A stretch of 64,000 bases of DNA from Chloroflexota bacterium (GCA_013112715.1 JABFGB010000016.1:1-64000); one strand, 5' to 3'. Counted from the first letter of the stretch, positions 15,722 to 25,227 are shown. Notes: generated from the letters alone by a model not told the origin. Program-made: numbers and translations.

Positions 15722-18571
15722 ATGGTGAAGAAACTGATCAAATCAATCTTCGGGGATCCAAACGAAGGAAAACTGAAACGCTACCGCCAAAAAGTTGAAG
15801 AAATCAACGCACTGGAACCCCAGTTGCAGAAAGAATCTGACGAGCAGTTACGCCAACGATCACTCAAACTGCGCGAAAAACATCAAGCGGGCACACCATT
15901 AGATGACTTGCTGGTGGAGGCTTTTGCGTTGGTACGCGAAGCCAGCCGCCGTACCATTGGCCTGCGCCATTTTGATGTGCAGTTGATCGGGGGCATGGTG
16001 CTGCATGAAGGCAACATTGCGGAAATGCGCACGGGGGAAGGGAAAACACTGGTTGCCACCCTGCCGCTCTATCTTAATTCGCTGACTGGACGTGGCTCAC
16101 ATCTGGTTACGCCCAACGATTACCTCTCTAAAGTCGGTTTGCAACAAATGGGGCCGATTTATCATTTTCTCGGGGTTTCGGCGGGGGTGATTCAAAGTAG
16201 TGCCCAACAGCGGGGGTCGTTTCTCTATGACCCAGATTTTCATAGCAACGATGAACGCTATGAAAATTTGCGCCCCGTTACGCGCAAAGATGCCTATGCT
16301 GCCGACATTACCTATGGCACGAATAACGAATTTGGCTTCGACTATCTACGTGATAACATGGTGCGTGATCTGCGTGAAAAAGTGCAGCGCGGGCATTACT
16401 TTGGCATCGTGGACGAAGTAGACAATATTTTGATTGACGAAGCACGCACTCCTTTGATTATCTCCGGTACGGCCTCCGCCCCGTCCGACCTCTATCAGTT
16501 GTTCGCCAAAATTGTGAAACCCCTAAAACCTTCATCTGATGCCTCGGTGGAAAATGAAGAACCCGACGGCGATTACGTTTTAGATCAGCGTACCAAAGGC
16601 GTCTATTTGACCGAGCAGGGCGTTGAAAAAGTGGAGCGGGCTTTCAAAACATCGGGCCGGATGGTGGGAGATAATCTTTACAGTCCCGATAACGCCGATG
16701 TGATTCCTTATCTCGACAATGCCTTGCGTGCCAATGTTGCCTATGAAATTGACCGTGATTATATCGTGGATGAGAGCGGTCAAGTGGTCATCGTGGACGA
16801 GTTCACTGGACGTTTGATGCACGGACGGCGCTTCTCGGAAGGGCTGCATCAGGCGATTGAAGCGAAAGAAAACGTCGAAGTCCAACGTGAAAATGTTACC
16901 CTCGGCACAATTACCTTCCAAAACTATTTCCGTATGTACGAGAAGCTGGCGGGTATGACGGGTACGGCTATGACCTCACTGGCCGAATTTCGCCAGATTT
17001 ATAACTTGGATGTGGTCGCTATTCCGACGCACCGACCTGTTATCCGTAAGGATAACCAAGATGTGATTTATATGACTGAGGCCGCCAAATTTAATGCGGT
17101 GGTTGAGGATATTCGGGAGCGTCAACAGCAGGGTCAGCCTATTCTGGTGGGTACAGTAGCGATTGAAACCAGCGAACACCTCAGCAAATTGCTGAAAAAG
17201 GCGGGTATTGAACACACTGTCCTTAATGCCAAGCAGCACTTCCGAGAGGCCAATATCATTACCCAAGCAGGTCGCCCCGGTGCGGTCACGATTGCGACCA
17301 ATATGGCGGGGCGTGGGGTTGACATTTTGCTCGGCGGCAACCCAGAAGGGATGGCGCGGGCTGATTTGCAGAGTCAAGGGCTTGATCTGACGCAACTAGA
17401 GCCGGAGGCGTGGAGTGCCGCCCTCGAAAAAGCCAAACAACAAGCTGCCCGTGACCGCGAGGTCGTTTTGGAGGCCGGGGGATTGTACGTATTGGGTACA
17501 GAACGCCACGATGCACGTCGCATTGATAATCAGTTGCGTGGTCGTGGTGGTCGTCAGGGGGATCCCGGTGAAAGCTGTTTCTATCTCAGCCTAGAAGATA
17601 ACTTGATGAAACGTTTCGGAGCGGAACGGGTGCGCGGCTTTATGCAGTGGGCCGATATTCCCGAAGACCAACCGATCCAGCACAGTTGGATTAGTAAATC
17701 CATCGAACAGGCCCAAGAGCGTGTCGAAGCCTATTATTTCGATATTCGCAAGCGTGTTTTGGAATATGACGATGTGGTCAATAAGCAGCGTCAGGCCATG
17801 TATAAACAGCGTGACGAAATCTTGACCGCTGACCCGGCCACATTGCGCGAGAAAATTCACCAACTGGTCGCCACTGAAATTGGGGAGTTCTGCAAGACGT
17901 ATCTGGTGGGCGAACGCGATGAATGGGATTTGGATGAAGTCTATCGTCAAGCCCTAACCATTTACCCTGTCCCGCCAGAAATTACGCCCGAAGTCCTTGA
18001 GGCCCAGAACAGTGCCGAAGATATTGAAGTTTTACTCCTCAAAGGCGCACTGCAAGCCTATGACCGCAAAACGGAAGAATTAGGTGGGCCAGAAAATATG
18101 GCACAGGTGGAGCGTCAGGTCATTTTGCAGGCGATGGATTCGCTGTGGGTGCGTCACCTGACCGACCTTGATGTCCTACGCGAAGGCATTGGCCTGCAAG
18201 CAATTCGCCAGCGTGACCCATTGGTGGAATATAAGATTGAAGGTTTTCGTATGTGGCAAGACCTTCAAAACGAAATTCAATCCACGCTCGTTCGGAATAT
18301 TTTCCGCGTCGAGATGGCTCGTCGGCAAGAACAAAAGGTCTCGAATGTGCGTGAAGGCCAGCAAATGGTTGATCCATCCAGTGTCAGGACAAACGCGCCA
18401 ACCTCAGCCCCTGAACCCACTCGGGCTACCAACCGACCGGGCCGGAATGATCCCTGTTGGTGTGGGAGTGGCAAGAAATATAAGCACTGCCATTACGAAT
18501 CTGACCAGCAAGACCGCCAGCCTGTTGCGCGGACACAAACTAAATCAGCCCCGCCCAGCCGCCGACGTTAA
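15722..18571 (+). CDS. secA: protein translocase ATPase SecA
   Basis: The 949-residue product shows all SecA landmarks: MRTGEGKTLVATLPLY (Walker A, about 102-117), VDEVDNILIDEARTPL (DEAD-type Walker B, about 230-245), NMAGRGVDILLGG (motif in the second ATPase half, about 524-536), RIDNQLRGRGGRQGDPG (about 600-616), and a C-terminal SEC-C zinc knuckle (NDPCWCGSGKKYKHC, about 909-923). It drives preproteins through SecYEG. An imperfect TATAAT lies near 15635, but the -35 is weak. It is a stand-alone gene flanked by hairpins. Confidence 0.97.
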   Translation: MVKKLIKSIFGDPNEGKLKRYRQKVEEINALEPQLQKESDEQLRQRSLKLREKHQAGTPLDDLLVEAFALVREASRRTIGLRHFDVQLIGGMVLHEGNIAEMRTGEGKTLVATLPLYLNSLTGRGSHLVTPNDYLSKVGLQQMGPIYHFLGVSAGVIQSSAQQRGSFLYDPDFHSNDERYENLRPVTRKDAYAADITYGTNNEFGFDYLRDNMVRDLREKVQRGHYFGIVDEVDNILIDEARTPLIISGTASAPSDLYQLFAKIVKPLKPSSDASVENEEPDGDYVLDQRTKGVYLTEQGVEKVERAFKTSGRMVGDNLYSPDNADVIPYLDNALRANVAYEIDRDYIVDESGQVVIVDEFTGRLMHGRRFSEGLHQAIEAKENVEVQRENVTLGTITFQNYFRMYEKLAGMTGTAMTSLAEFRQIYNLDVVAIPTHRPVIRKDNQDVIYMTEAAKFNAVVEDIRERQQQGQPILVGTVAIETSEHLSKLLKKAGIEHTVLNAKQHFREANIITQAGRPGAVTIATNMAGRGVDILLGGNPEGMARADLQSQGLDLTQLEPEAWSAALEKAKQQAARDREVVLEAGGLYVLGTERHDARRIDNQLRGRGGRQGDPGESCFYLSLEDNLMKRFGAERVRGFMQWADIPEDQPIQHSWISKSIEQAQERVEAYYFDIRKRVLEYDDVVNKQRQAMYKQRDEILTADPATLREKIHQLVATEIGEFCKTYLVGERDEWDLDEVYRQALTIYPVPPEITPEVLEAQNSAEDIEVLLLKGALQAYDRKTEELGGPENMAQVERQVILQAMDSLWVRHLTDLDVLREGIGLQAIRQRDPLVEYKIEGFRMWQDLQNEIQSTLVRNIFRVEMARRQEQKVSNVREGQQMVDPSSVRTNAPTSAPEPTRATNRPGRNDPCWCGSGKKYKHCHYESDQQDRQPVARTQTKSAPPSRRR

Positions 18572-18589: not shown

Positions 18590-18620
18590 TAGGGGAGGGT
18601 GAGATACTCGCCTTCCCCTA
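18590..18620 (+). terminator. strong stem-loop after secA
   Basis: A 14-bp stem with two wobble pairs (18590-18603 with 18607-18620) and a 3-nt loop. No T-run follows, so it may be a transcript-end stabiliser and not an intrinsic terminator. Confidence 0.55.
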
Positions 18621-18750
18621 GCTAAAACCCTCATCATATGGAAATGGTTGCATTTTTCAAACATCATAGGCGACCATCAAAAAGCCGCTATAATTGACTT
18701 AATCTAGGGTGTAATAGCAGGTTTAACGTGGAAACTAGGATTAGGTGGTG

Positions 18751-19128
18751 ATGGGGAGTAATCAAGAGGAACTGACGAGCCGCTTGATGGATGATATAGA
18801 CCCTGATTTATTGGAGTTTATCCAGTTACGGGTCAATACATTTATCAAATGGGATTTGGTGCAGTTTTTTCACCGTAATCCGCATACCACCGATTTGCCC
18901 AACCAAATCGCCCAATATATTGGACGAGACCCCCGTATTGTTGCGCCAGAACTCAAAGCACTAGCAGCATCCGGTGTATTACATGAAGAAGAACTTCAAG
19001 GGATGCGCATTTATACCCTCACTCCTGATGACGAGATGCGTCAACGCATTGCCCGGTTTGTAGAGGCTTGTGAGGATCGCCAATTTCGCCTCAAAGCCAT
19101 CTATCATGTCATTAAGGGGCTGCATTGA
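18751..19128 (+). CDS. winged-helix-type DNA-binding protein paired with a KaiC-like gene
   Basis: The 125-residue product (ATG 18751 with TAGGA 10 nt upstream; GTG codons at 18745 and 18748 are alternatives) has a helical core with a probable winged helix at about 28-90 (FFHRNPHTTDLPNQIAQYIG, then LKALAASGVLHEEELQGMRIYTL). It overlaps the start of the KaiC-like gene (TGATG), so they are translationally coupled. Likely a regulator that acts with the ATPase; DNA target unknown. Confidence 0.65.
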   Translation: MGSNQEELTSRLMDDIDPDLLEFIQLRVNTFIKWDLVQFFHRNPHTTDLPNQIAQYIGRDPRIVAPELKALAASGVLHEEELQGMRIYTLTPDDEMRQRIARFVEACEDRQFRLKAIYHVIKGLH

Positions 19129-19937
19129 TGACACCTAGTATCCCAAATTTGCCCCGATTGGCAACCGGTATCAGTGGTTTGGATGATATGCTGCAAGGCG
19201 GTTTTTTGCCCCGCACCGCCAATTTGATTGAAGGCGCTCCCGGTACAGGCAAAACCACGCTGGGGATGCAATTTATCCATCACGGCATTGCGGCGGATAA
19301 TGAAGCGGGGCTGATTTTGACCTTTGAGGAATTTCCTATCCATTATTATCGGGACGCACTGGGTTTTGGCTGGGATTTTCAACACTATGAAAAAGAAAAC
19401 CGCCTGCGGGTGGTCATGACTAGCCCCGAAGTCACCCTAAGCGATTTGCAGCGACTTGGTGGGATTTTGGAAGCACATGCCTCCCAAATTGGCGCACGCC
19501 GGGTTTTGATTGACAGTATCAGTCATTTTGAGCGTATCAGTAGTGATCCAGTGACGCTCCGCACGCTGGTTTATCAGTTTATCAATGTCCTCAAGCGTTT
19601 GGGCCTGACTGCTGTTCTGACCCGTGAAAATCCGGCCCTGTTGGGTGAGACGCCAGAGGATGAAGAAGACCTTGCTTTTATTGCCGACAGCTACATTATG
19701 CTGCGCTACGTGGAGATTGAAAGCGCCCTTGCCAAAGCCCTCTTGGTACTAAAGCAGCGCGGCAGCAATCATGCCCGTGACATTCGGCAGTATCAAATCG
19801 GGGCATCTGGCATTGTGGTGCAAGAGCCGTTTGAAGGGGCACAGGGCGTGATGAGCGGCAGTCCGGTGATGACCATGCGAGACGCTTTCCAAAAAGCATT
19901 TTTTGCATCCAAACATCGTCCGCCAGAAAAGTCATAG
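19128..19937 (+). CDS. single-domain KaiC / RAD55-type ATPase
   Basis: The 269-residue protein holds one RecA-fold KaiC domain: TGISGLDDMLQGGFLPRTAN (about 12-31) leads into Walker A GAPGTGKTTLG (about 35-45), a catalytic-Glu region LTFEEFP (about 65-71), Walker B RRVLIDSISHF (about 125-135), and the C-terminal ARDIRQYQIGASGIVV seen in KaiC-like proteins. It has only one of the two KaiC domains and no recognisable KaiA/KaiB nearby, so clock function is not implied. Stand-alone KaiC-like ATPases act in signalling with kinases. It is coupled to the winged-helix gene and lies upstream of a GAF kinase. Confidence 0.87.
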   Translation: MTPSIPNLPRLATGISGLDDMLQGGFLPRTANLIEGAPGTGKTTLGMQFIHHGIAADNEAGLILTFEEFPIHYYRDALGFGWDFQHYEKENRLRVVMTSPEVTLSDLQRLGGILEAHASQIGARRVLIDSISHFERISSDPVTLRTLVYQFINVLKRLGLTAVLTRENPALLGETPEDEEDLAFIADSYIMLRYVEIESALAKALLVLKQRGSNHARDIRQYQIGASGIVVQEPFEGAQGVMSGSPVMTMRDAFQKAFFASKHRPPEKS

Positions 19938-19944
19938 GTGACCC

Positions 19945-20238
19945 TTGAGCCTAAATTTAAACCAAATTCTTTTATTTATTGGGTGGTTTGCCGGAACGGG
20001 CCTGATTTATATATTGGCTCTGATTGCTCGATTTTATGAGATTAACTCGGGTGAAAAGACCTACTACCGCTTTTTTGCAGCACCTCCCATTGTATTTGGC
20101 GCGGCGACAGCGCGTTATTCAAGTTTGGATCAATGGGGTGGCGATTGGCTTGGGGATGTATTACTCTTTGCAGGGGGGGCGGTCTTATTAGGGTTGTGTT
20201 ATCATCTGTATCATCGTATGACCAGTGGACGACCCTAG
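19945..20238 (+). CDS. small membrane protein A of the KaiC cluster (97 aa)
   Basis: Starts at TTG 19945, seven bases after the KaiC stop, with no strong ribosome site; start uncertain. Two or three hydrophobic spans are visible (about 6-27, 45-58 and 69-88), the last ending in a basic tail that overlaps the next gene. Family unrecognised. Its position between the ATPase and a histidine kinase suggests a membrane anchor or sensor, which is inference. Confidence 0.5.
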   Translation: MSLNLNQILLFIGWFAGTGLIYILALIARFYEINSGEKTYYRFFAAPPIVFGAATARYSSLDQWGGDWLGDVLLFAGGAVLLGLCYHLYHRMTSGRP

Positions 20239-20242
20239 GCCT

Positions 20243-20581
20243 ATGAAAGTCCTCACACTTCTAAGTTCTCTTGCTCCTATTGCCATCACCATTATGCTGG
20301 TCATTTTTGCTGAGTTAAGCCGTCGGTTGGGGGCAGTTGTCAAAACGGCTCCGTTGTACCGATGGTTCTATGTCGCGGCGGTACTGACATTTTGTAGTTC
20401 GGTAGTGCGACTCCTCAGCATTGAGTTTTCACAGCGAGATTTTGAATATTCAACCGGGCAGGAAATTGCTGCCTATGCCTATGCGTTCCCGTTGATGATG
20501 GGATTACTGCTGGCTTTATGGGTTGCATGGCGCTATTGGGGGTGGTTGGTATATGCAGGTGATGGTGATTCCCCGGCATAG
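20243..20581 (+). CDS. small membrane protein B of the KaiC cluster (112 aa)
   Basis: ATG 20243 is chosen; the GTG at 20225 would overlap the preceding gene by 14 bases. The product has three hydrophobic spans (about 5-22, 39-58 and 83-103) and short loops. Family unrecognised. It sits 44 nt before the PAS-GAF histidine kinase and is likely in the same transcript. Confidence 0.5.
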   Translation: MKVLTLLSSLAPIAITIMLVIFAELSRRLGAVVKTAPLYRWFYVAAVLTFCSSVVRLLSIEFSQRDFEYSTGQEIAAYAYAFPLMMGLLLALWVAWRYWGWLVYAGDGDSPA

Positions 20582-20624
20582 GGCATCGTAAAAAATCGCT
20601 CGTAGAATTTAGGTCTTTCATGCT

Positions 20625-23219
20625 ATGACCGCTTCAAAATTTGTGTCGAATGGCGTCTATCCTACATCCACTGCCGTAGTACTTTTGGTGGATGTGAGCG
20701 GCATCATCCACTTTGCCACTGAAGATATAGATCAATTATTAGGTGTTTCGGGGGCGGAAGCCATCGGTAAATCCCTTTTTGATCTGATGCCGCCAGAAAA
20801 ACAAGCACCAAGTCACCACGAATGGTCAACGTTCGTTCAGCATGTTTTGGCTGAGGGACCTCATGCCCACAATTTTCAGACGATTTTAGTCGAAGGCGCT
20901 GGCAAACCTTTGTCGGTTCGTCTGAGGGTGACTCCCGTACCTAATCGAGATGAATTGTTGGTACAGATCGAAACTGAGACCAGCAATATTGAACGTGCCC
21001 AAACCCTTGCCTTGCAAAAAGTAATTTCGGCAATCACGACCCTCGATATTCGGGAAATACTAGACCTAATCTTGGATCAGGCAACTTATTTTATCCCATC
21101 TGACGGTGCAGTTATTGTGGTTGAGGTCAACGATGATTTGCATCTGGTCAGCGAACGGGGGTATTTCGAATGGAAGGATATTCACTCAACCTATCCCTCA
21201 GCGGAAATTATGCGGGCGGAGACCACCCGAATTTTGCGCGAAACTCGCCGCCCCTTGATTATTGATGATTGCCAAAACGACCCACGCTGGCAGGTGCTGG
21301 GGGCTGAACCCTCCATCGCAAGCTGGTTAGGTGTGCCGCTCGTCTTCCGGGATACCTTTTTGGGGATGCTGCATCTGTATTCATCAACAGCCCATTCATT
21401 TAGTCAGAACGATGCCAATCTCGCCATGAGTTTTGCCGAAGAAGCGGCGGTCGCCATTCACAACACGCGGCTGTATGAAGAAGCCCAAACCCGTGCCCAA
21501 ATGCTCGAAACCCTGAATGATTTAGGGGTTGCGGTGAGCCGTTTGGATTTGCACGGAGTCTTGGAAGTTGCCTATCAAAAACTGAGTCAGGTGATGGACA
21601 CCCGCAGTTTTTATATTGGTGTTTATAATCCGGAAACGCGCCAATTTTGGTTAACGCAGACGTATGATGATGGGCAGCGCATTGACGACCTTGTGACGCC
21701 GATTGAGGAAGAAACCGGGCTGGTGGGATGGGTGTTTCATAACCGCAAACCGTTGATTATTCATGACGACAATCAAGACCTCTATCCCATTCCACCGATT
21801 ACCTATGGGGGGGATACGCGCAGCCTCGTCATTCTCCCATTAATGGTACAGGATGAATTTGTTGGGGTGATCTCTGTACAGAGCTATATCCCGAATCGTT
21901 TTAATGAACAGGATATTGCGGTGCTGCAATCCGTCGCCAGCCCCTTAGCAATTGCGATACGGAATGCGCAACTGTATGAAAATGCCCAGCGTCGCCTAGC
22001 CGAAGTTTCGGCACTACATGAGTTGGCACGAACTGTCACCAGCACTAACAGCACCGAGTCCATTAGTCAAATGGTCGTCAACAGCCTTCATACGATTTTT
22101 CAATGTCAGGCAAGTGCGCTTTTGTTAGTTGAAGGTGATGAGGTGATTCTCAAGGCCTCGTCCGGTGTCGCGCCAGAATACATCCCCCTCGCCCGGTGGA
22201 AAATTGGTGAGGGGGTCGCTGGCAAAGTCGCCGCAACAGGCCAAACAATGTATATTCAAGATACCCAAGCAGTTCCCGATTTTATGTATTTGGAACCGAC
22301 TTTGCGGTCAATGTTGGCCGTGCCATTGAATTTCAATGATCAGGTGATCGGGGTGCTGTCCATTGATAGTGATACACCCCATGCCTTTACTGCCGACCAC
22401 GAGCGCGTCTTGAATATCGTAGCCGCACAGGTCGCCGCCGCGATTGAAAATGCCCGGCTTTTACACGAGACCCGCCAGCGAACGGTTGAATTAGAAGATG
22501 CTTATCGCCGATTGCAGTCGCTGAATGAATTTCGAGAAGAATTGGTACACAACATCAGCCACGATTTGCGGTCGCCGATGACGTTTGTCAAAGGCTATAT
22601 TGAACTTATGCGGGAACAAATGCTTGGCCCGCTGACCGAGGAACAGGTCAACGCGCTGGAAGTGATTGACCGAAAATCAGACGCGATGCTGCGGCTTATC
22701 AACGAAATTTTAAAGATGAAGGATATTCGCCCCGATACGCTCGAATTTGTCGAGGCCGATCTCGGTGACATTGTTCAGCAGCACATTGAGCAAGCGCGGA
22801 TGTCCTATGTCGACAGTGGCGTTATTTTTGAGCCTGCCCCTCGGCAAGGCCCTCTGATGGTGCGCGTTGATTTAGATAAAATGGATCGGGTATTGGAAAA
22901 TTTGGTTGCTAATGCGGTCAAGTTTTCTAAGGCGGGCGGACATGTACGCATCTATTGTGAGCCAAGCGAAGATCGTCGTCATGGACGGGTGATCGTGCAA
23001 GATGAAGGTATTGGAATTCCCAGTGATAAATTAAATTACGTGTTTAAGCGGTTTTTTCAGATAGATACTCCCGATGGTACATCTTTGGAAAGCGGTATCG
23101 GTATTGGCCTCTCCATTGTGAAGCAGATTGTAGAGGCGCATGATGGCAAAATCGAAGTAGAAAGCGAAGTAGGCAAGGGCAGCAAATTTTGGTTCACCTT
23201 GCCGCTTCGAGGAGGGTAA
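20625..23219 (+). CDS. PAS-GAF-GAF-GAF sensor histidine kinase
   Basis: The 864-residue cytoplasmic protein has an N-terminal PAS domain (about 15-110), three GAF domains (about 135-290, 295-455 and 460-625), each with a SWLGVPL- or LVILPL-type strand followed by GVL/GVI, a HisKA helix with NISHDLRSP (phospho-accepting His at about 645) and a HATPase_c domain whose N-box is [10 protein letters not shown] and whose G-box is [11 protein letters not shown]. No TM segment or receiver domain. It ends the KaiC cluster and probably feeds an unlinked response regulator. Confidence 0.9.
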
Positions 23220-23228
23220 ACGAGAGTA

Positions 23229-24302
23229 GTGGCGTTTGAAGTGACGGATGCCATTCAACGCGATTCCGACACATGGCGGGCACTCAAAGTGATGCCAAAA
23301 ATTGAACTCCACCGCCATTTGGAGGGGTCTATTCGCTTAGATACGTTGGTCGAGGTTGCCAAGCAATATGATATTCCGCTGCCCGCCTATGATGTGGAGG
23401 GATTGCAACCTTATGTCCAAGTGACTCGTGATGACCCGCCGACCCATCAACGATTTTTGAGTAAATTTAGCATCCTGCGCCAGTTTTTTGTGGCTGAGGA
23501 AGTGATTCGACGGGTGGCCTGTGAAGTCGTTGAGGACGCCGCCGCCGATAACGTCCGCTATATGGAACTGCGCTTCACCCCGTTTGCGCTGGCAAAATGT
23601 ATGGATTTCCCACTGGCCGATGTTATGACGTGGGTCAATGAAGCAGTGAGCGAAACTGCCAGCAAGTTCGGCATTCAGGTAGGTTTGATTGTCGCCATGA
23701 ACCGCCATGAAAGTGTTGCGATTGGCGAACAAATGATGCGCCTCGCTGTAGATTTCTTAGGGCGTGGCGTGACGGCAGTGGATTTGTGCGGCAACGAAGC
23801 GGGCCATCCTGCTGATCCCTTTACCTCCATTTTCCTAGAGGCTCACCAATCAGGCTTAGGGGTGACCATCCATGCGGGCGAATGGGCTGGCGCGGAAAAT
23901 GTGATTTATGCGATTGAGCAACTCCACACCCGCCGCATTGGACATGGGGTGCGGGCTATAGAGAATCCGGTTGCCTTACAATTGGCACAGGATTACGGCA
24001 TTTGTTTGGAAGTCTGCCCAACCTCGAATTTGCAGACGGGTGTAGCGGCCTCGGTTGCCCAACATCAGTTATTGAACCTACGTTCGTTGGGCCTCAATAT
24101 CACCCTCAACACCGATGATCCAACCGTAAACAACACAACACTGACTGATGAGTATGCGTTGGCTGTACAGGGGTTAGGCTTCCCCATCGAATATCTTCAG
24201 CAGTGTATTCTCAATGCGGTGCAAGGGGCATTTTTGTCACCCAATGAAAAAGCAGCCCTTGAAGCCGAATTCAGAACGGCATTTAATGGGCAGGTGTTAT
24301 AA
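23229..24302 (+). CDS. add: adenosine deaminase
   Basis: The 357-residue product has the zinc-binding HRHLEGS (about 25-31), HAGEWAG (about 215-221), GHGVRA (catalytic-loop His near 238) and NTDDP (about 294-298), the set that defines adenosine and adenine deaminases. It converts adenosine to inosine. GTG 23229 is used with GGAGGG about 12 nt upstream. It follows the kinase gene by 9 nt. Adenine deaminases share these motifs; the choice of adenosine is by overall appearance. Confidence 0.85.
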   Translation: MAFEVTDAIQRDSDTWRALKVMPKIELHRHLEGSIRLDTLVEVAKQYDIPLPAYDVEGLQPYVQVTRDDPPTHQRFLSKFSILRQFFVAEEVIRRVACEVVEDAAADNVRYMELRFTPFALAKCMDFPLADVMTWVNEAVSETASKFGIQVGLIVAMNRHESVAIGEQMMRLAVDFLGRGVTAVDLCGNEAGHPADPFTSIFLEAHQSGLGVTIHAGEWAGAENVIYAIEQLHTRRIGHGVRAIENPVALQLAQDYGICLEVCPTSNLQTGVAASVAQHQLLNLRSLGLNITLNTDDPTVNNTTLTDEYALAVQGLGFPIEYLQQCILNAVQGAFLSPNEKAALEAEFRTAFNGQVL

Positions 24303-24348: not shown

Positions 24349-25227
24349 ATGTTCAAATTAGATCATGATGCTTTTACCGTCCATGTCTTCAGCGACGGCG
24401 AAGTGAAGGTGGATTGTGGCGGCCCTTTTGGGCTTGTGCCGCGTGTGTTGTGGAGTCGCTATCAGCCCCCCGATGCCAACCACATGCTGCCGATGTGCCT
24501 CAATAATCTGTTGATTCAGGCACATGGCAAAAATATCTTGGTAGATGTGGGGCTAGGCAGCAAATTAACTCCTAAAATGGTAGCCCAATGGCAATTGACA
24601 CATCCCAACGGTACATTAATTGAAGGGCTGGCGCGAGTAGGCCTAAAACCCGAAGACATTGACTTGGTGATTAACACCCATCTTCATGCCGACCACGCAG
24701 CGGGGAACACGATTTTGGGCGATGGTGGTCAAATCTTGCCTACTTTCCCAAATGCCGAGCATGTCGTCCAACGCCGAGAATATGAAGATGCGATGCGTCC
24801 CAATGAACGCACTGCCGCCACCTATATCGCCGCGAATTTTGAACCGCTGTTTCAAAATGGGCAGATGCGACTTTTGGAAGAGGATACTGAAATTTTGCCG
24901 GGGATTTGGGGTGTGGTGACACCCGGCCACACCCCCGGTCATATGAGTGTGGTGATTGACAGCGGTGGCGATCATTTATTGTTTGCCTGCGACCTTGCCA
25001 CCTATGCCGTTCACTTTGAAAAATTGGGATGGATGACCGCCTATGATGTCGAGCCGTTAGTGACGCTGGAGACCAAACGTAAATGGCAGCAGTGGGCATG
25101 GGAAACCAACGGGATTATAATTTTTCCGCATGATGTCACCCTGATGGCGGCCCGCCTCAGTCAAGACGAGGCCGGAAAACCCAAACTCATTCCATTGACT
25201 GAAGCCGAGGGCGCTTGCTATTCTTGA
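24349..25227 (+). CDS. metallo-beta-lactamase-fold hydrolase
   Basis: The 292-residue product contains the HxHxDH motif as NTHLHADHAAGN (about 107-118), a later metal His in PGHTPGHMSVVI (about 193-203), and FACDL with the bridging Asp. It resembles the MBL-fold lactonase / quorum-quenching and hydroxyacylglutathione hydrolase group, but the substrate cannot be assigned. AAGGA lies before the ATG. Confidence 0.85.
   Translation: MFKLDHDAFTVHVFSDGEVKVDCGGPFGLVPRVLWSRYQPPDANHMLPMCLNNLLIQAHGKNILVDVGLGSKLTPKMVAQWQLTHPNGTLIEGLARVGLKPEDIDLVINTHLHADHAAGNTILGDGGQILPTFPNAEHVVQRREYEDAMRPNERTAATYIAANFEPLFQNGQMRLLEEDTEILPGIWGVVTPGHTPGHMSVVIDSGGDHLLFACDLATYAVHFEKLGWMTAYDVEPLVTLETKRKWQQWAWETNGIIIFPHDVTLMAARLSQDEAGKPKLIPLTEAEGACYS

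Follow-up and report, generated by a model that had tools for sequence, protein, structure and literature searches.

The window analysed here, a 64,000-nucleotide stretch of DNA from a Chloroflexota bacterium (GCA_013112715.1 JABFGB010000016.1:1-64000), contains at positions 18751-23219 a compact gene cluster encoding a winged helix-turn-helix (wHTH) protein, a KaiC-family ATPase, two small membrane proteins (TM1 and TM2) and a histidine kinase. The cluster appears to be a signalling module that has been passed on mainly by vertical descent and is, as far as seen, confined to the Anaerolineae, a bacterial class of soil, sediment and hot springs. Its strict core consists of the four genes wHTH-KaiC-TM1-TM2, and its most durable part is the TM1-TM2 pair and not the ATPase.

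ORF calling reveals five open reading frames (ORFs), all on the plus strand and tightly spaced or coupled, just as an earlier reading of the sequence alone had claimed. The wHTH protein (18751-19128) has 125 residues from the ATG at 18751, in a frame that opens at a GTG at 18745. Its stop codon overlaps the ATG of KaiC (TGATG), which encodes a single-domain ATPase of 269 residues (19128-19937; PF06745, 1.8e-49). TM1 (19945-20238; 97 residues) begins with a TTG after a gap of 7 nucleotides. TM2 (20243-20581; 112 residues from the ATG at 20243) follows 4 nucleotides later, or overlaps TM1 if translation starts at GTG 20225, where its frame opens. The kinase (20625-23219; 864 residues) lies a further 43 nucleotides downstream. 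Among the five gene products, Pfam and NCBIfam identify known families only for KaiC and the kinase; the wHTH, TM1 and TM2 proteins reach no cut-off in either database. When compared with a relative whose wHTH protein is 91% identical, the ratio of non-synonymous to synonymous substitutions (dN/dS) is 0.04-0.06 for wHTH, KaiC, TM1 and TM2 (0.05 for wHTH itself), and homologues of the module genes recur in unchanged order across dozens of genera. These four genes are therefore real, and the ratios indicate that purifying selection acts on all of them.

Co-occurrence was determined in 199 genomes of the class Anaerolineae, with a few TM1/TM2 profile matches at E values of about 0.001-0.008 set aside. 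The module-type KaiC (class A) is present in 37 of the 199 genomes, plus one (G090) whose contig ends inside KaiC. The TM1 and TM2 profiles match the same 43 genomes, and the two genes lie side by side in 43/43. All 38 genomes with class A KaiC carry both TM1 and TM2, and only five further genomes carry the pair (Fisher p about 1e-35, relatedness ignored). The sequence-only reading had staked its proposal on co-conservation of the wHTH and membrane proteins with the ATPase, and this expectation held. A wHTH-profile scan using one genome per species gave 108 loci, 80 of which were kept. All 80 are titled Chloroflexota and most belong to the Anaerolineae; TM1 is found in 78, TM2 in 78 and KaiC in 66. 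The usual order, seen in most of them, is secA-wHTH-KaiC-TM1-TM2, followed by the kinase and/or an adenosine-deaminase-family gene (ADA). A phylum-wide draw of 301 genomes, whose non-class share is unreported, yielded three matches to the TM2 profile, all in Anaerolineae. A mobile or viral origin was rejected, since viral contigs contain no wHTH relative and plasmids carry only a distant KaiC (<60% identity; 30-34% among the matches listed).

Could the genes be unrelated, and held together only by slow rearrangement of secA regions? The secA gene (15722-18571, plus strand) is the usual upstream neighbour and is considered context here, not a module member. As scored, it lies directly upstream in 61 of the 80 named loci, and it does so in the majority of loci whose upstream sequence can be read. 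Such inertia would suit the mainly vertical inheritance of the module and the persistence of two context genes downstream: ADA (23229-24302, plus strand; TIGR01430, 1.6e-88), present in 51/80 named loci, and the conserved gene that follows it (24349-25227), which here bears the provisional label MBL. However, genes on the other side of secA are not conserved. As a control, the gene upstream of secA was compared among loci; it has no relative in 37 of 57, and its commonest family was seen 4 times. The block also relocates as a unit, being intact apart from secA in L080, L127 and L158, and present as wHTH-TM1-TM2 in L130. Neither TM1 nor TM2 was ever found without the other beside it, and in one case the two have fused, as a single ORF of 206 residues in G146 (L073:7636-8256). 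Together with the near-perfect co-occurrence of KaiC with TM1-TM2, this makes inertia a very improbable explanation.

The structures of TM1 and TM2 were predicted as monomers. Each model consists of three long helices (predicted local distance difference test scores of 82 and 79, predicted template modelling score of 0.63); the sequence-only reading had called both proteins integral membrane proteins. The three-helix layouts of the two models match, and their profiles are similar (hhalign probability 86, E 5e-6), which suggests that TM1 and TM2 are a diverged tandem pair of common descent. TM2 contains the motifs LS-RLGAVTKM-PYYR and RYWGWL. A fold search of the Protein Data Bank (PDB) gave no significant match for either protein, with best Foldseek E values of 2.0 and 0.6; the top VIA-align Z score for TM2, 9.5, is in the usual range for helical bundles. 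TM1 and TM2 appear to represent two new membrane protein families. With the topology assigned by the positive-inside rule, the cytosolic loops of TM1 and TM2 are the most conserved parts (mean conservation 0.63 and 0.69) and are basic, with net charges of +2.2 and +3.6, whereas the outer loops are acidic and variable (0.43 and 0.31). This contrast speaks for docking at the cytosolic face rather than for sensing of an external ligand.

Among PDB entries, the ATPase is closest to the KaiC clock proteins (1.3e-101), and most of all to their CII domain. In an active-site census, the Walker A lysine, the Walker B aspartate, the first catalytic glutamate and the equivalents of K457 and R459 are invariant in 67/67 sequences. 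The equivalent of T432 is phenylalanine or tyrosine in all 67, and that of S431 is mostly alanine. The window protein has one domain where clock KaiC has two in tandem, and clock KaiC models score far below their cut-off on it. Its conserved C-terminal tail, F-E-G-x-x-G-I-x-S-G-S-P, resembles the end of CII and is not special to the module, because class B KaiCs carry similar tails. The earlier statement that neither KaiA nor KaiB is present is true of the locus, the extent of the KaiA search; KaiB (PF07689) was not found anywhere in the same genome (G000), and of 29 genomes with the module, 6 have a match above the cut-off. A second KaiC paralogue of about 39-48% identity is encoded elsewhere in the genome (G000:C2:218044-218772; L083:8003-8776) and at L183-L194. 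Directly upstream of it is a MinD/Get3/ParA-like ATPase gene in 7/13 loci, and a PrsA/SurA-type foldase gene is nearby in 6/13.

The fifth gene encodes a soluble kinase with PAS, three GAF, HisKA and HATPase domains according to Pfam, and thus both HisKA and HATPase_c. Its relatives are likewise multi-GAF proteins with 2-8 GAF domains. Its best match is the kinase of the module locus in 10/13 genomes, well above other kinases, and the locus kinase is therefore an ancestral module member, orthologous across loci. Of the 75 KaiC loci whose downstream sequence can be read, only 45 have it, and it changes state 13 times on the SecA tree. The kinase thus appears ancestral but labile and often lost, and the strict core is reduced to four genes. 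No response regulator is adjacent to the window kinase, which is flanked by TM2 and ADA. At some loci the kinase is followed by a gene of the phosphate acetyl/butyryl-transferase family (L133:14637-15536, tested as PF01515, and L165:7462-8370).

KaiC is missing from one clade that is sister to KaiC-bearing relatives (16 rows of the SecA tree, one change). Five KaiC-less genomes were checked: three contain no KaiC-family protein at 1e-5, and two contain only two-domain KaiCs elsewhere. TM1-TM2 is kept in 5/5 and wHTH in all but G055, while the kinase is absent from 17/17 readable KaiC-less loci. KaiC is therefore not required for retention of the remaining genes, and TM1-TM2 is the most durable part of the module. 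The sequence-only reading was largely right about a conserved system, as co-occurrence and gene order attest, but it misjudged the hub: the ATPase, which it saw as linking membrane state to kinase and gene control, was lost with the kinase in a clade that kept TM1-TM2 and usually wHTH. The joint absence of KaiC and kinase would be consistent with kinase action by way of KaiC. KaiC-linked substitutions occur at T46 of wHTH and at R41 and P84 of TM2.

The wHTH protein belongs to a conserved family (A1), whose signature comprises F-K-W-D-L, G-R and A-C-x-D-R-x-F-R-V-K. Within the named set, members without KaiC show no change in this signature. A different picture is seen in the f35 loci, which lack KaiC, TM1 and TM2 yet keep secA-wHTH(-ADA). 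Here the wHTH identity falls to 28-34% while that of SecA is 50-55%; cassette-bearing loci at similar SecA identity have a wHTH identity of about 48-55%. The constraint on wHTH therefore follows TM1-TM2 more than KaiC. The secA-wHTH arrangement, mostly followed by ADA and with a wHTH that has diverged strongly, is retained by Anaerolineae without KaiC, TM1 and TM2 at the locus (L201, L202, L204 and L206, all f35, and L207). This suggests a link between secA and wHTH that either predates the cassette or outlasted it.

The explanation that we tentatively favour, while holding it short of probable, is a membrane platform at which a wHTH protein docks together with KaiC as a switch, the kinase adding an input that is optional. 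TM1 and TM2 would form a small heteromeric platform, whose conserved positive cytosolic face would dock two acidic partners: the wHTH protein and, in the majority of lineages, the KaiC-type ATPase. With its single CII-like domain and catalytic residues but no clock phosphosites, KaiC, probably assembled as a ring, may act as an ATP-dependent switch and decide whether wHTH stays at the platform or is released to act. Optional input from the cytosol would come from the soluble multi-GAF histidine kinase and would depend on KaiC, and the output would be transcription, either of the module itself or of neighbouring genes. Several observations weigh against this arrangement. The homology of TM1 and TM2 is suggestive only. 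Since KaiC was lost only once, the KaiC-kinase link and the KaiC-linked substitutions rest on one clade. G055 carries TM1-TM2 without wHTH, and the wHTH proteins of L071, L073 and L081 are divergent despite the presence of TM1-TM2.

The region between secA and wHTH bears on two other explanations. A GC-rich hairpin (18590-18620, plus strand; 14-nucleotide arms, 86% complementary, no T run) lies just after secA and is kept in relatives, which suggests that secA is transcribed separately from the module in the window genome. Next on the same strand come a conserved block, TGGAAATGGTTGCATTTTTCA (18639-18659), which contains an AAATG-N4-CATTT dyad, and a TATAAT box (18689-18694); together they are a candidate promoter or operator upstream of wHTH. 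Block and box are conserved in five close relatives (the window and L089-L092). If the wHTH protein were an ordinary DNA-binding repressor with a regulon as its output, TM1-TM2 and KaiC would be regulated cargo or anti-factors. The dyad, with one matched change in L092, is what such a repressor might bind, and members of the wHTH family show weak, sub-threshold matches to MarR_2, HVO_A0114 and DUF7342 models, that is, to MarR/TrmB/archaeal wHTH-like proteins. However, the wHTH protein has an acidic median pI of 5.45, and the putative recognition helix varies, ranking among the less conserved parts of the protein, so that DNA binding is uncertain and the gene control suggested at the outset is unproven. 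The only exact copy of the dyad in the genome, and its sole intergenic copy, is at the module promoter. A dyad regulon was rejected, as the two weaker matches are in or at predicted genes and provide no convincing second promoter site. We consider the repressor model unlikely.

Alternatively, the module might monitor the Sec machinery or the membrane and, in response, adjust expression of secA or of export-related genes, which would account for its neighbour. The frequency of secA directly upstream, the survival of secA-wHTH(-ADA) in genomes without KaiC, TM1 and TM2, and the foldase gene near the second KaiC paralogue are in keeping with this. The module is nevertheless intact away from secA at three loci, with wHTH-TM1-TM2 at a fourth, and in the window genome the hairpin and the separate TATAAT box part it from secA. 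We consider export monitoring rather unlikely. The SecA ORF of L133 is 2208 residues long, and unusually long SecA ORFs also occur in L132, L101 and L104; these are possibly insertions, fusions or frame artefacts.

The module apparently is undescribed and belongs with known KaiC-based signalling modules; a literature search found no description of it, the main paper on KaiC hubs lying outside the reach of that search. As in cyanobacteria, where KaiC works with SasA and CikA, a KaiC-family ATPase is paired with a histidine kinase, and the window ATPase is nearest to CII and keeps the Walker A/B, catalytic glutamate and Lys/Arg finger positions. In contrast to cyanobacterial KaiC, it has one domain instead of two, its phosphosites are replaced by A and F/Y, and membrane proteins take the place of KaiA and KaiB in a genome without KaiB. 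The BlaR1-BlaI system pairs a membrane protein with a wHTH repressor, and here too a wHTH protein is encoded beside membrane proteins; unlike in BlaR1, neither a sensor nor a protease domain is recognised in TM1 or TM2, and a BlaI-type model matches the wHTH protein only marginally. ArlH of the archaellum motor is a single-domain KaiC-type protein that works with membrane and cytosolic partners (PMC8978795); the window KaiC, likewise of a single domain, may do the same. Membership of an archaellum was rejected because the ArlH model reaches 34.7 bits where its cut-off is 215; at the module locus, no arl genes were recognised. KaiC-like ATPases have been proposed as archaeal signalling hubs (Makarova, Galperin and Koonin 2017, cited in PMC5847659). 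As far as that citation conveys the hubs, the module shares with them a KaiC-like ATPase in conserved gene order with other signalling genes, here those of a wHTH protein and a histidine kinase; in this outline comparison, the module differs in being bacterial, class-restricted and fixed in order, with two new membrane families.

It is possible, if rather unlikely, that the module represents a new class of membrane-anchored switch across the Anaerolineae, in which a platform of two membrane proteins brings in a wHTH adaptor together with a ring of KaiC, and relays cell energy or kinase input to the Sec export region. Beyond cyanobacteria and the archaellum, the partners of KaiC-type ATPases are mostly unknown, though general signalling hubs have been proposed. 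Here, gene order across dozens of genera fixes the partner genes, and the KaiC-less lineage is a natural knock-out. Together with the two apparently new membrane families, this makes the partners of a non-clock KaiC directly testable.

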